Below, piece after piece: positions 9,407 through 12,659 of a DNA stretch of 33,191 bases. The stretch is taken from contig CAMDQJ010000045.1 in assembly GCA_945905835.1 (NCBI GenBank), forward strand, positions 1 to 33,191. The letters are read 5' to 3'. A program made the translations under genes and the position numbers. The stretch is from Asaia bogorensis (GTDB lineage: Bacteria; Pseudomonadota; Alphaproteobacteria; Reyranellales; Reyranellaceae). The notes beneath the pieces were generated by a model, which was not told the DNA's origin, did no database searches, and was given only the letters and a program-made list of their open reading frames with translations. Position 1 is the stretch's first letter. Every line of letters begins with the position of its first letter.

Positions 9407-9958
9407 ATGGCGCTGCCCCCGTTCAAGGTCACGATCTGCGGCATTCCCGAATTGCCCCAGCACGTCGGCGCCGGCATCAGCCACGTGCTGTCGATCATCG
9501 ACACCCACGAGCCGCGGCCGGTCGTGCTCGACCAGTATCTCGGCATCGACCACGAGCTGATCCGCTTCGACGACATCGTGGCGGAGTATCCCGGCTTCGA
9601 GGCCTGCACCCAGCACCATATCGAGCGCCTGCTGAAATTCGGCGAGCGCGTGCATGCCAACCCGAGCGGCCACGTTCTGGTGCATTGCCATGCCGGCGTC
9701 TCGCGCTCGACGGCGGCGGCGGCGATCCTGATGACGCAGTTCACGCCGGGCAACGAGGAAGCGGCGTTCCTGAAGCTGCTTGAGCTGCGCAAGCACGGCT
9801 GGCCCAATACGCGCATGGTCGAGTTCGCCGACCGCCTGCTCGACCGCAAGGGCGCGCTGCTGAAGGGGCTACAGGCCTATCGCCGGGCGCTGCTGGACGC
9901 CAAGCCGCATCTGAGCGAGATCATCAGGAATATCGGCCGCGGTCACGAACTGCCGTAA
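9407..9958 (+). CDS. Tyrosine / dual-specificity protein phosphatase family protein
   Basis: A 183-residue protein with the cysteine phosphatase P-loop HCHAGVSRS at residues 93-101: nucleophile C94 and phosphate-binding R100 in a complete CX5R motif. D55/D56 in IRFDDIVAEYPGF could supply the general acid. The fold order (strand VLSIID, FDDI loop, helix, P-loop, helical C-terminus) fits small atypical dual-specificity phosphatases. The ATG at 9407 follows the transporter stop by 11 bases with a GAAAGAAG Shine-Dalgarno-like stretch. Its 3' end overlaps the convergent Rieske gene by 16 bases. The target, whether protein, lipid or nucleotide phosphate, is unknown. Confidence 0.88.
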   Translation: MALPPFKVTICGIPELPQHVGAGISHVLSIIDTHEPRPVVLDQYLGIDHELIRFDDIVAEYPGFEACTQHHIERLLKFGERVHANPSGHVLVHCHAGVSRSTAAAAILMTQFTPGNEEAAFLKLLELRKHGWPNTRMVEFADRLLDRKGALLKGLQAYRRALLDAKPHLSEIIRNIGRGHELP

Positions 9959-10716
9959 GCCTCGGTGAGGCGTTGGTGGAATTGCGCCACCTGCTTGTTC
10001 GCAGTCGCTGGCATGTTCGCGGTCTGACGCTGCTCGCAGGCCTGCTTGAAGGCATTGAGCGCCGGTTTCAATCCGTCCGGGGCAGTTCCGAAAACGTGCG
10101 TCATCAGGTGCGTCTTGAGGAAGGTGTGCGGCACGACCTGCTCGACGATCGTGGTGCCGCCGCCATTGCGCACCGCCAGCAGCGGCCAATGCCAGGTGAA
10201 ACGCGACAGCGACAGCAGCAGCTCCTCGACCGCGACCTTCCAGTTACAGGCGATCTCGGTCGTCGTCGTTCCGGCGTAGGGCGTGCTGTGGACCTCGGGC
10301 AGGTCGGCCGGGACCGCTGTATCGCCCATGTTGAACCACACGAGGCCGCCACGGATTTCGCTTGCCAGGGTTTGAAGGTGCTGGTCGGGCGATACCGGCG
10401 CCACCGGCGGCGCGCTCTGGAACTTGCCGGCGAGATCGTAGGTCCAGCCATGGAAGCGGCAGCGCAGGCTCTGGCAGCTGCCTGCCCCCGTCGCGACCAC
10501 CGGCATGTTCTGATGCCGGCAGGCATTGCGCAGCACCCGGACGGTGCCGCCCTCATCGCGAACCGCGAACACGCCCCAGCCACCGACGCTCGCCGAGAAG
10601 AAGTCCCCCGCCCCCGCCACCTGTCCCTCGGCGCAGAGCGGCAGCCATTCCTTGGCGAAAACCGTACGTTTTTCCGCCTGAAACGCCTCACCCGTCGCGT
10701 AATCCGCCGCGTTCAT
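9943..10716 (-). CDS. Rieske [2Fe-2S] protein with a reduced ring-hydroxylase-like C-terminus
   Basis: A 257-residue protein. The Rieske domain has a complete cluster motif, C66-R-H68 and C86-R-F-H89 with 17 residues between (CRHQNMP...CRFHGWTYDLAG), as in the alpha subunits of ring-hydroxylating oxygenases. The following part begins with the family's CNWKVAVE at 157-164, but the mononuclear-iron region is altered. Where the family has ENxxExYHxxxxH, this protein keeps E164 and H176 and has Glu, Leu, Leu and Ser at 165, 168, 170 and 171. The protein then stops about 100 residues short. It may serve in electron transfer rather than oxygenation (inference). I chose 10716 because the upstream start at 10770 would place the operators inside the coding region; AGGA directly abuts this ATG. 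Confidence 0.82.
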   Translation of the reverse strand: MNAADYATGEAFQAEKRTVFAKEWLPLCAEGQVAGAGDFFSASVGGWGVFAVRDEGGTVRVLRNACRHQNMPVVATGAGSCQSLRCRFHGWTYDLAGKFQSAPPVAPVSPDQHLQTLASEIRGGLVWFNMGDTAVPADLPEVHSTPYAGTTTTEIACNWKVAVEELLLSLSRFTWHWPLLAVRNGGGTTIVEQVVPHTFLKTHLMTHVFGTAPDGLKPALNAFKQACEQRQTANMPATANKQVAQFHQRLTEAYGSS

Positions 10717-10721
10717 TCCTT

Positions 10722-10733
10722 TCTGTATACAAT
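10722..10733. promoter_or_regulatory. Putative GntR operator, imperfect copy
   Basis: TCTGTATACAAT matches the perfect palindrome at 10794-10805 in 10 of 12 bases and lies 72 bp from it, about seven helical turns. It sits 6 bp upstream of the chosen Rieske start codon. TGTATACA at its core is a perfect 8-bp palindrome. The likely binder is the GntR regulator encoded at 12006 (inference from position and motif type). Confidence 0.55.
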
Positions 10734-10735
10734 AC

Positions 10736-10746
10736 TGGTCATACCA
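10736..10746. promoter_or_regulatory. TGGT-N3-ACCA palindrome
   Basis: TGGTCATACCA is an inverted repeat of four bases around a 3-bp centre. It has the TGGTnnnACCA form known for FadR, PdhR and LldR, members of the same GntR subfamily as the regulator at 12006. It begins two bases after the TCTGTATACAAT site. It could be a second operator of the same or another regulator; an 8-base match can also arise by chance. Confidence 0.4.
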
Positions 10747-10775
10747 ACCGATATCTTCGATTTTGCACATCTAAT

Positions 10776-10805
10776 TTGACGCTTCATCGCCCTATTGTAT
10801 ACAAT
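10776..10805 (+). promoter_or_regulatory. Promoter of the diiron-enzyme operon
   Basis: TTGACG at 10776-10781 (5 of 6 to the -35 consensus) and TACAAT at 10800-10805 (5 of 6 to the -10) are separated by 18 bp, on the plus strand about 32 bp before the start codon at 10837. The -10 hexamer is the right half of the perfect palindrome ATTGTATACAAT, so an occupied operator would block polymerase. Confidence 0.5.
10794..10805. promoter_or_regulatory. Putative GntR operator, perfect palindrome
   Basis: ATTGTATACAAT is a perfect 12-bp palindrome in the divergent control region. The GTATAC-centred form is typical of FCD-type GntR regulators (for example the rhizobial MatR site, TCTTGTATACACGA). It covers the -10 box of the operon that also encodes a GntR/FCD protein, so autorepression relieved by a small organic acid ligand is the simplest model (inference). 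Confidence 0.6.
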
Positions 10806-10836: not shown

Positions 10837-11574
10837 ATGTCCCCCAAAAGCCCGTTCCGCCAGTCTCTCGAGGAAGCCATCGAGCAGCGCCACTCCGCGG
10901 TGCATCCGTGGAGCGAGGCCTGGACCTCCGGCAAGCTCGACCGCCGCATGCTCGGCGAATGGGTGAAGCAGCACTATCACTACGTCAGCCACTTCGCCGA
11001 ATGGGTGGCCGCGGTCTACGCGACCTGCCCGCACCCGGAAGTGCAGCACTTCCTCCTGGAGAACGTCACCGAGGAGGAAGGTCTCGTCGGCATGGGCGGC
11101 GCGGCGCCGGTGCGCCATTCCGACCTGCTGCTCGAGTTCGGCGAGGTCTGCGGCATGAAGCGCGACGAGGTGCTGAACGCGCAGAACAATGGCCAGCTCC
11201 TGCCCGAGACGATCGGCCTGCAAAGCTGGTGCACGGTGCAGTCGCGCAAGCCTTTCGTCGAAGCCCTGTCGGGCCTACTGATCGGGCTGGAGAGCCAGGT
11301 GCCGCGCATCTACAGCAAGACCACGCCGCCACTCCTGGAGAAGTACGGCTTCAGCGAGGACGAGGTCACCTTCTTCTCGATCCACATCGTGGCCGACGTC
11401 GAGCATGGCGAGAAAGGCTTCGAGATCGTCGAGAAGTACGCGACCACCGACGAGCAGCGCGCGACCTGCGTCCGCATCGTCAGAGAGGCGACCATGATGC
11501 GCCGCCTCTATCTCGACGGCGTCTATCGCACCTTCGTCGACAAGGCGCAGGCCGAGAAGAAGCTCGCGGCCTAG
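10837..11574 (+). CDS. Haem-oxygenase-like diiron enzyme (TenA/PqqC superfamily, iron-containing redox enzyme)
   Basis: A 245-residue all-helical protein of the TenA/PqqC/CADD superfamily. The last core helix carries H183-x3-D187-x2-H190 (SIHIVADVEHGEKG), the metal-binding pattern of haem-oxygenase-like diiron oxidases such as CADD and UndA. E152 (LIGLESQVP), E80/E81 (NVTEEEGL) and H94 (PVRHSDLL) are candidates for the remaining ligands, although the spacing from E81 to H94 is longer than usual. TenA thiaminase and cofactor-free PqqC lack this set, so an O2-activating di-metal enzyme is favoured. The start has a strong GGAGG eight bases upstream. It opens a three-gene operon with GlcG-like and GntR genes and is divergent from the Rieske gene. 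The substrate is unknown. Confidence 0.82.
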   Translation: MSPKSPFRQSLEEAIEQRHSAVHPWSEAWTSGKLDRRMLGEWVKQHYHYVSHFAEWVAAVYATCPHPEVQHFLLENVTEEEGLVGMGGAAPVRHSDLLLEFGEVCGMKRDEVLNAQNNGQLLPETIGLQSWCTVQSRKPFVEALSGLLIGLESQVPRIYSKTTPPLLEKYGFSEDEVTFFSIHIVADVEHGEKGFEIVEKYATTDEQRATCVRIVREATMMRRLYLDGVYRTFVDKAQAEKKLAA

Positions 11575-11575
11575 G

Positions 11576-12001
11576 GTGCTCAGCTACAAGACCCTGACGC
11601 TTGGCGAAGCGCACCTAATCCTCGACGCCGCCCAGAAGGTTGCCGAAAAACTGGGCGTGCCCGAGGTGCTGTGCGTCGCCGACAACTCGGGCTATCCGAT
11701 CGCGCTGCGGCGACTGGACGGCGGCAAGGTGACCAGTGTGCAGATCGCCATGAATAAGGCCTTCACCGCCGCCGGCCATCGCAAGCCCACGCACAACTAC
11801 AAGAACGCGCTGCCCGGCAAGGAAGCCTTCGGCATCTTCACCCAGCACGAGGGCCGCTTCACCGTGTTCGTCGGCGGCTTCCCGATCTTCGTCGACGGCC
11901 AGTGCGTCGGCGCGGTCGGCGCTTCGGGCGGCAACGGCGAGCAGGACACCGCCTGCTGCGAAGCCGGAATCGCGGCCTTCATGGCAACTCTGAAAAAGTA
12001 G
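11576..12001 (+). CDS. GlcG/HbpS family heme-degrading/binding domain protein
   Basis: A 141-residue single-domain protein of the GlcG/HbpS (DUF336) family. Typical segments are LTLGEAHLILDAAQKVAEKL, VCVADNSGYPIALRRLDGG, the AMNKAFTAAGHRKPT helix, and the Gly-rich VDGQCVGAVGASGGNGEQD followed by a helix with DTACCEAGIAAF. The family contains haem-binding HbpS and accessory proteins of glycolate, propanediol and aromatic pathways; the true ligand is often unknown. The GTG start at 11576 follows the previous stop by one base, so it is almost certainly translated with the diiron enzyme. It could help deliver a cofactor or act on the product. Confidence 0.88.
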   Translation: MLSYKTLTLGEAHLILDAAQKVAEKLGVPEVLCVADNSGYPIALRRLDGGKVTSVQIAMNKAFTAAGHRKPTHNYKNALPGKEAFGIFTQHEGRFTVFVGGFPIFVDGQCVGAVGASGGNGEQDTACCEAGIAAFMATLKK

Positions 12002-12005
12002 AACC

Positions 12006-12659
12006 ATGGCACTGGATCGCGATTCCCTCACCAAGGTCGCAAGCGACCGCATCCGTAGCCAGATCCTGGCCGGCAAGCTCAGGCCGGGCGAGCGGCTGGT
12101 CGAGGACAAGCTTTCGGCCGAGTTCGGCGTGTCGCGCGTGCCGGTGCGCGAGGCCCTGCGGCTGCTGTCGGTCGAAGGCCTGGTGCTGCTCGAACCACGC
12201 CGCGGCGCCTCGGTCGCCAGCGTCTCGGCGGAAATCGCCGACGAGCTGGTCGAGGTCCACGCACTCCTCGAGGGCATGAACGCCCGCATGGCCGCGCGTC
12301 GCCACGACCCGGAAATCATCGCACGGCTGGGCGACACGCTGAAACGCGGCAATGCCGCCGCGGCCAACGGCACCGTCGAGCTGCTCGCCAGCCTCAACCG
12401 CGAGTTCCACGGCCTGCTGGCCGAGGCCAGCCGCAATTCGGTGCTGTCGGACATCATGCGCAGCCTGCGCGAGCGTACGGCGCTGGCCTTTTCGGAGAAC
12501 AGCCGGGTGCGGGCGCGCCAGGACTGGAACGAGCATTCCGGCATCCTGGCCGCCGTGATCGATGGCGACGAGGAACTGGCGGCGCTGCTGGCCACGCGTC
12601 ACGTGCAGAACGCGGCGGAGGCTTTTGCCAGCTCCACCGCCGAAGGCAAGGCCGCCTAG
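12006..12659 (+). CDS. GntR family transcriptional regulator with FCD domain
   Basis: A 217-residue regulator of the FadR/VanR type. Residues 7-72 are the winged helix-turn-helix (KVASDRIRSQILAGKLRPGE, SAEFGVSRVPVREALRLLSV, then LEPRRGASV as the wing). The C-terminal FCD domain has the expected metal-binding histidines in NREFHGLL, WNEHSGILAAV and ATRHVQNAA; the usual first-ligand Asp is Asn in this reading (LNREFH). Such domains bind organic acids with Zn or Ni. The gene begins 4 bp after the GlcG-like gene and is the last of the operon, so it probably controls its own promoter through the GTATAC palindromes. Its TAG stop shares the bases CTAG with the convergent SDR stop. Confidence 0.93.
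   Translation: MALDRDSLTKVASDRIRSQILAGKLRPGERLVEDKLSAEFGVSRVPVREALRLLSVEGLVLLEPRRGASVASVSAEIADELVEVHALLEGMNARMAARRHDPEIIARLGDTLKRGNAAAANGTVELLASLNREFHGLLAEASRNSVLSDIMRSLRERTALAFSENSRVRARQDWNEHSGILAAVIDGDEELAALLATRHVQNAAEAFASSTAEGKAA

Follow-up and report, generated by a model that had tools for sequence, protein, structure and literature searches.

The stretch of DNA analysed here (33,191 bases, contig 45 of a 4.07-Mb assembly, in the following referred to as the window) encodes a Rieske protein, RIES, that has kept its [2Fe-2S] cluster motif and has lost the mononuclear-iron site of a Rieske oxygenase completely. From comparative genomics we consider it probable, with a chance of roughly two in three, that RIES is a former Rieske oxygenase alpha subunit which now serves as a dedicated [2Fe-2S] carrier for the heme-oxygenase-like dimetal oxidase (HDO) encoded next to it. 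According to the mechanism that we propose, a cellular flavin reductase would reduce the Rieske cluster of RIES, which would hand the electrons singly to the dimetal centre of HDO, and HDO would activate O2 at this centre and oxidise an imported small molecule. In RIES, the helix-grip domain, now shortened, would no longer bind a substrate and would act as scaffold and docking surface. A GntR regulator might sense the substrate or the product and control both divergent promoters via paired GTATAC palindromes. Purifying selection on RIES, its compact fold, its co-occurrence with HDO, the operator-like sites shared by both genes and the ferredoxins found in sister HDO operons all support the carrier function. 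The corresponding features are listed in Table 1.

Table 1. Features of the window discussed in the text, with the basis of each assignment. Residue numbers of RIES refer to the 257-residue form counted from the Met at 10716.
Feature	Position	Strand	Basis
RIES, degenerate Rieske oxygenase alpha-like protein, 257 aa	9943..10716	-	orthologue alignment, Pfam Rieske
F223, which replaces the Asp iron ligand of the C-terminal ExxQ helix	10048..10050	-	three concordant MAFFT modes
Remnant of the catalytic site: NWK helix (residues 159-168) followed nearly at once by the W-P strand; holds S171 and H176	10189..10242	-	alignments, secondary structure
[2Fe-2S] Rieske motif C66-x-H68 ... C86-x2-H89	10450..10521	-	C66, H68, C86 and H89 invariant in 29/29 distinct orthologues, window included
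Operator-like palindrome TCTGTATACAAT near the RIES start	10722..10733	.	comparison of GTATAC sites
Operator-like perfect palindrome ATTGTATACAAT upstream of HDO	10794..10805	.	no second exact copy in the assembly
HDO, heme-oxygenase-like dimetal oxidase (Haem_oxygenas_2 / TENA_THI-4)	10837..11574	+, divergent from RIES	Pfam; mechanical ORF from 10795
HbpS-like protein	11576..12001	+	PF03928, 115.9 bits
GntR-family protein with FCD domain, which probably regulates the module	12006..12659	+	PF07729 and PF00392

Intact cluster and lost iron site in RIES

The open reading frame of RIES (9943-10770, minus strand) comprises 275 amino acids, and the residues upstream of 10716 are not conserved. Since the 29 distinct orthologues, including the one in the window, can be aligned from Met19 of this frame onward, translation probably starts at the Met at 10716, which had also been chosen in a preceding reading of the sequence alone (the sequence-only reading). 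The conserved region is intact in 29 of 30 distinct copies, and the remaining copy is broken by unread assembly bases. Duplicate loci from one genome were counted once, and L034/L058 (one genome) was left out of the residue counts because the gene is interrupted by such bases. One orthologue (L033/L057) stops early, after 229 residues. The only Pfam match of RIES at E 0.001 is the Rieske domain (PF00355, 60.2 bits), and among the NCBIfam and PDB matches listed, most are oxygenase alpha subunits that align chiefly over this domain. The named relatives are Reyranella and MAGs called Rhodospirillales or other Alphaproteobacteria, and in a few cases bear different labels. With 29 of 30 copies read through and an invariant cluster motif, the assumption of an intact frame, an intact Rieske domain and a complete 2Fe-2S motif, made from the window sequence, is borne out.

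The fate of the iron site was examined in alignments (three MAFFT modes) of 24 RIES orthologues and 12 ordinary oxygenases, the latter from the own genome and from other loci. All three modes align the NWK helix of RIES with the oxygenases as far as residue 169, after which approximately 95 oxygenase residues (211-305 of the oxygenase L003) have no counterpart in RIES. H212 and H217 of L003 both lie opposite this gap, and the position of its D372 is occupied by Phe223 in the window protein; these three residues correspond to the mononuclear-iron ligands established for ordinary oxygenases. Beyond the gap, residues 177-178 of RIES (W-P) correspond to the F-P strand of the oxygenases, residues 196-202 to the P-x5-T hairpin and residues 223-231 to the ExxQ helix. 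The spacing between NWK and this Pro is 17-25 residues in all 29 orthologues, compared with 116 in L003, and none of the orthologues at this locus has the full triad, as all of them carry these 17-25 residues where the oxygenases have both His. At the position of the Asp ligand the 29 orthologues possess Ile (20), Phe (4), Thr (3), Leu (1) and, in the distant L060, Asp (1). The 2-His-1-carboxylate site of the window protein is therefore lost completely, with both His in the gap and Asp replaced by Phe. A global hhalign comparison places the excision at the same spot but introduces a gap in the last helix, and it is consequently not used for the assignment of F223. Since the local hhalign of both alignments covers only residues 3-171, the C-terminal part was mapped with the MAFFT modes, and the global hhalign serves as additional evidence for the place of the excision.

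A further acidic residue of the active oxygenases is mostly lost as well. Position 168 of RIES, which is Leu in the window, aligns with E209 of L003, the Asp/Glu that bridges the cluster and the iron site between oxygenase subunits. Ala, Leu or Gly are present here in 24 of the 29 orthologues, Glu or Asp in four and a gap in one. The loss of the bridging acid would fit a cluster whose electrons leave the protein.

These results modify the picture drawn from the window alone in several details. The sequence-only reading had stated that most of the iron site is lost and that the first Glu and the last His of an ENxxExYHxxxxH region remain. The loss itself is confirmed, but it is not partial, since no ligand is left in the window protein. 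Ser171 and the His five residues further on are indeed present in the window, with Ser at position 171 in 3 of 29 orthologues. H176, however, is His in just eight of the 29 and lies, according to MAFFT, opposite the residue preceding the conserved F/W-P of the next strand and not opposite a ligand, so that a retained His ligand was rejected. E164, the supposed first Glu, is kept in 28 of 29 orthologues, but it is not known as one of the three iron ligands of these enzymes. The catalytic domain, described there as about 100 residues short at its C-terminal end, lacks approximately 95 residues, and these are missing internally and not at the C-terminus, the ExxQ helix being kept.

The AlphaFold2 model of RIES, calculated from the orthologue alignment A1, has a pLDDT of 89.0 and a pTM of 0.87, and the best 50 rows of a Foldseek search with this model are all oxygenase structures. 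VIA-align 2 superimposes it on CntA (6y8s) with a Z of 24.2 and an rmsd of 3.1 over 254 residues and on TPADO (7q05) with a Z of 24.0 and an rmsd of 3.1 over 257 residues. The comparison of the predicted structure with ring-hydroxylase alpha subunits thus gives an oxygenase-like fold over the full length of RIES, in which a Rieske domain is followed by a helix-grip catalytic domain that is approximately 95 residues shorter internally. Since the model aligns over its entire length, RIES retains the complete alpha-subunit plan at a reduced size.

The RIES gene shows dN/dS values of 0.14-0.23 in the 12 closest pairs among 23 sequences, where the pairs share members and none of them contains the window. 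The remodelled domain (residues 147-212) is under purifying selection, with dN of 0.02-0.10 versus dS of 0.19-0.44 in the same pairs. Among 27 RIES rows of the genus, the mean pairwise identity amounts to 75% for the Rieske domain and 72% for the core of the remodelled domain, compared with 40% for the linker and 48% for the tail.

The four-gene module and its putative regulation

Of 65 genomes of the Reyranella-like genus, the same 28, including the own genome, contain both RIES and a close HDO, and neither RIES (E 1e-20) nor a close HDO (1e-30) was found in the other 37. Carriers of the module include Reyranella soli NBRC 108950 and R. massiliensis 521, which makes the question of its function testable. 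Beyond the 28 genus genomes, RIES was found at two more distant loci. G069, which belongs to another genus, possesses both RIES and a close HDO. When 398 genomes drawn across the phylum were searched with the A1 profile (E 1e-28), only G000 and G016 contained full-length matches, and the remaining matches stop at or before profile position 175, as expected for full oxygenases. Among plasmids, 942 records match RIES, all with less than 60% identity, and 28 of them cover 80% or more of the query. Three plasmid records examined from the matches listed have long reading frames for oxygenases that include the NWK...YH...H region, and nothing matching HDO was found near the oxygenase genes of these three.

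For an analysis of empty sites, 17 of the 37 genus genomes without RIES and five genomes from other genera were queried for the flanking gene for a dual-specificity-phosphatase-like protein (DSP). DSP was found in 21 of these 22 genomes, which resulted in 16 genus loci without RIES. In 12 of the 16, DSP and the SDR1 gene are separated by 10-1,064 bp (six within 150 bp) and no module gene was detected between them; of the other four, L167 keeps a remnant of the GntR gene and in three SDR1 was not found within the examined stretch. In the other genera, DSP is located beside SDR1 in four of five loci. Accordingly, the four genes of the module occur together or are missing together. The GntR remnant of the module-less L167 (L167:3014-3115, between DSP and SDR1) points to a loss in that lineage.

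HDO belongs by its sequence to the heme-oxygenase-like family (PF14518, 100.8 bits versus a cut-off of 28.9). The six ligands of the 3-His/3-carboxylate dimetal site (E, H, E, H, D, H) are present in all 30 HDO rows of the RIES type and in 44 of 46 HDO rows overall, the first Glu being a gap in L136 and Asp in L143. In a tree calculated from 32 of the 46 rows, the 16 RIES-associated rows form one group (100/97). A structure model of HDO made from the single sequence only reached a pLDDT of 40.

The gene order of distant members gives some hints at the physiological context. In G069 all four module genes lie on one strand, with the start of RIES 6 bp past the HbpS gene, and an ABC transporter of the SBP_bac_5 type is encoded divergently. 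In L060 an aldehyde dehydrogenase gene is inserted on the HDO strand between the HbpS and GntR genes, a gene for an FMN-dependent dehydrogenase follows beyond, and an NMT1-type ABC transporter is encoded on the other side of the module. These transporters and dehydrogenases suggest a catabolic role, and the substrate of HDO is probably an imported small molecule. In the window, the 3' end of RIES overlaps the convergent DSP gene (9407-9958) by 16 bases (9943-9958). Some Reyranella possess an ORF of roughly 280-340 aa between RIES and DSP on the RIES strand (L043:6978-7826, as well as L040, L042, L045, L047 and L051). The L043 protein may resemble the CmcJ family; no Pfam match was found for it at E 0.01.

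Exactly two GTATAC-centred sites are present around the starts of RIES and HDO in each of 23 loci (L037-L059, L058 included and L060 with its five sites excluded). In these loci, 46 of 49 GTATAC sites fall within 7,065 of 256,722 bases (2.8%) around the two starts, and the window contains no other GTATAC sites than these two. A less strict 10-base pattern, allowing two mismatches, is no rarer in the window by itself than chance predicts (2 occurrences, 1.12 expected), and the 12-base operator word with up to 2 mismatches occurs at 8 places in the whole genome, compared with 4 for the reversed control. The evidence for the palindromes as operators therefore lies in their conservation across loci. 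Near-perfect copies elsewhere in the genome lie on C33, beside another GntR gene, and on C24; no link of these copies to the module was found. Paired GTATAC sites also precede the sister HDO genes described below, and in L060 three such palindromes (L060:9780-9962) are located upstream of the gene for an NMT1/THI5-like binding protein of an ABC transporter. The latter suggests that the L060 transporter belongs to the same regulon as the module. Taken together, the sites at the sister HDO genes and at the L060 transporter suggest a regulon for the import and oxidation of a small molecule, and the GntR protein would be the factor that binds the palindromes.

Proposed electron supply to HDO and competing explanations

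Three of the 37 genus genomes without RIES (G011, G039 and G062) carry an HDO with 45% identity to that of the window. At the corresponding loci (L132, L133 and L131, respectively), two plant-type [2Fe-2S] ferredoxin patterns are located between HDO and a related GntR gene. The first ferredoxin gene of L132 starts 3 bases past the HDO stop codon and its product matches Fer2 with 29 bits (cut-off 21), whereas the second one, like the pairs of L131 and L133, was identified solely from its cysteine pattern. These operons represent another candidate for a dedicated HDO redox system. By analogy, RIES would fill the slot of the electron carrier, since the sister HDO operons have two ferredoxins and no Rieske gene, and this is the strongest argument for the proposed function. 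The L132 operon (L132:5909-8557) also encodes a protein of 98 aa without Pfam match.

Some observations weaken the carrier function. Within the genus RIES varies more than HDO, with 50-61% identity compared with 78-91% for the best HDO copy. The flanks of approximately 1.5 kb (5 kb for one locus) of the 13 other HDO rows in the tree, which come from 12 loci, contained no convincing gene for a Rieske protein or a ferredoxin, so that these HDO relatives may use general carriers. Isolated hits to the carrier patterns, two in L142, one in L130 and, elsewhere in L132, one resembling a ferredoxin and one resembling a Rieske protein, did not look like genes on visual inspection. No reductase gene was detected among the scanned neighbours of RIES either, and the two FAD_binding_6 proteins of the genome are both encoded on other contigs.

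Among the other explanations, the most probable one, although unlikely, is that RIES is itself an enzyme of the pathway in which HDO takes part, with a newly formed site for a metal or substrate that conserved residues of the remodelled domain, and in many orthologues a loop His, would build up. The remodelled domain is under purifying selection, E164, H165, H197 and H207 are conserved in 28, 24, 27 and 28 of the 29 orthologues, respectively, and 17 of the 29 have a His within the loop that was shortened, frequently in the form EHLLAEH, so that a new metal or ligand site is conceivable. However, the window has Glu and L060 has Ser at position 165, H197 is replaced by Arg in the two most distant members (L035 and L060), H207 is Leu in L060, and the loop His is missing from the window and 11 other orthologues. 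H197 would moreover be located in a hairpin turn, as judged from the alignment with the strands of the model, and the oxygenase region from the ligand helix to the next strand is gone. A function as redox or oxygen sensor, or as assembly factor for HDO or the HbpS protein, instead of a catalytic electron donor, might be suspected from the presence of a regulator and an HbpS-like protein in the module. We regard it as very unlikely, since the regulator is of the GntR-FCD type and the two ferredoxins that replace RIES in the sister operons point to electron supply.

Ordinary oxygenases pass electrons between subunits, and the own genome encodes nine further Rieske-domain proteins. RIES might thus pair, as a subunit, with an active Rieske oxygenase whose gene lies elsewhere, with the cluster of RIES feeding the iron of the neighbouring subunit in a mixed trimer. 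This arrangement is likewise very unlikely, because no second Rieske protein was detected in flanks of up to 6 kb at the RIES orthologue loci, whereas HDO is a constant neighbour, and because the bridging acid is gone from the window protein and most orthologues. The decay of an oxygenase gene, finally, would explain the loss of the catalytic ligands taken alone, but with the conserved region read through in 29 of 30 distinct copies, dN/dS values of 0.14-0.23 and an invariant cluster it has next to no probability and was rejected. The sequence-only reading had likewise preferred a remodelled electron carrier or a new activity over random decay, and this remains the best reading and gained independent support, although it was inaccurate in assuming remaining iron ligands and a C-terminal loss and made no mention of the partner enzyme HDO. 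Compared with the carrier function of RIES as such, a more specific version is tentative and has in our opinion somewhat less than an even chance: HDO and RIES would form a two-component oxygenase, in which a Rieske alpha subunit turned carrier is the obligate donor and perhaps gates O2 activation by docking via its remodelled domain.

Relation to known systems

RIES shares with the oxygenase alpha subunits CntA (6y8s), TPADO (7q05) and stachydrine demethylase (4qup) the Rieske domain and the order of the fold over the whole length, including the NWK helix, the W/F-P strand, the P-x5-T hairpin and the ExxQ helix. Unlike these, the window protein has none of the three iron ligands, no bridging acid and approximately 95 internal residues less. 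The Rieske-type ferredoxins of multicomponent oxygenases are single-domain proteins of about 110 aa that use their cluster only for electron carriage. RIES, with 257 aa and a shrunken catalytic domain, is clearly larger and does not belong to this size class.

The module would be a further candidate for an HDO with its own redox partner, of another chemical type than the one already described, and the sister operons with ferredoxins would be yet another. According to the report on MboA and MboB, the genes of this HDO and of its dedicated redox protein lie in one gene cluster, the redox protein MboB, an NAD(P)H-flavin-Fe2S2 reductase, is required for a second turnover, and the authors state in 2026 that MboAB may be the first characterised dedicated pair of an HDO and a redox partner (PMC13185094). 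The existence of a dedicated partner for one HDO supports, by analogy, the proposed role of RIES. MboB, a flavin-Fe2S2 reductase, belongs to a different pathway and differs in type from RIES, a degenerate Rieske oxygenase. The literature searched, mostly outside subscription journals, does not describe any Rieske protein as partner of an HDO, and a review on HDO enzymes mentions Rieske twice only, in an unrelated comparison and its reference (PMC13108848).

A separation of the Rieske cluster from the oxygenase iron is described for the 7-methylxanthine demethylase NdmCDE, in which both are located on separate proteins and NdmC is an iron monooxygenase without Rieske cluster (PMC4408171). In NdmCDE, as described there, the cluster resides on the reductase and the oxygenase iron is kept, whereas in RIES the iron site is lost and the proposed partner is an HDO. 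If the proposed function is true, RIES would be a clear case of an oxygenase that kept its electron-input domain and lost catalysis, the mirror image of NdmC, and it suggests how an old enzyme might become a wire for a new one.

The nearest solved relatives of HDO are p-aminobenzoate synthases of the CADD / PabS type (9pj4, 1rcw and 8va9; E 1e-19 to 2e-17), with which the six ligand positions align. HDO reaches 100.9 bits with the curated CADD model, well below its cut-off of 200 bits, and is thus not a CADD-type protein by this measure. The position of Tyr27 of 1rcw, which is described as the self-sacrificed residue of this enzyme, is Ser in all 30 HDO rows of the RIES type, which makes a self-sacrificing reaction unlikely for these proteins. 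A tandem duplication of HDO was observed in one genome (L046:4386-5937 and L017:3-1437), with copies that are 72-73% and 87% identical to the HDO of the window.
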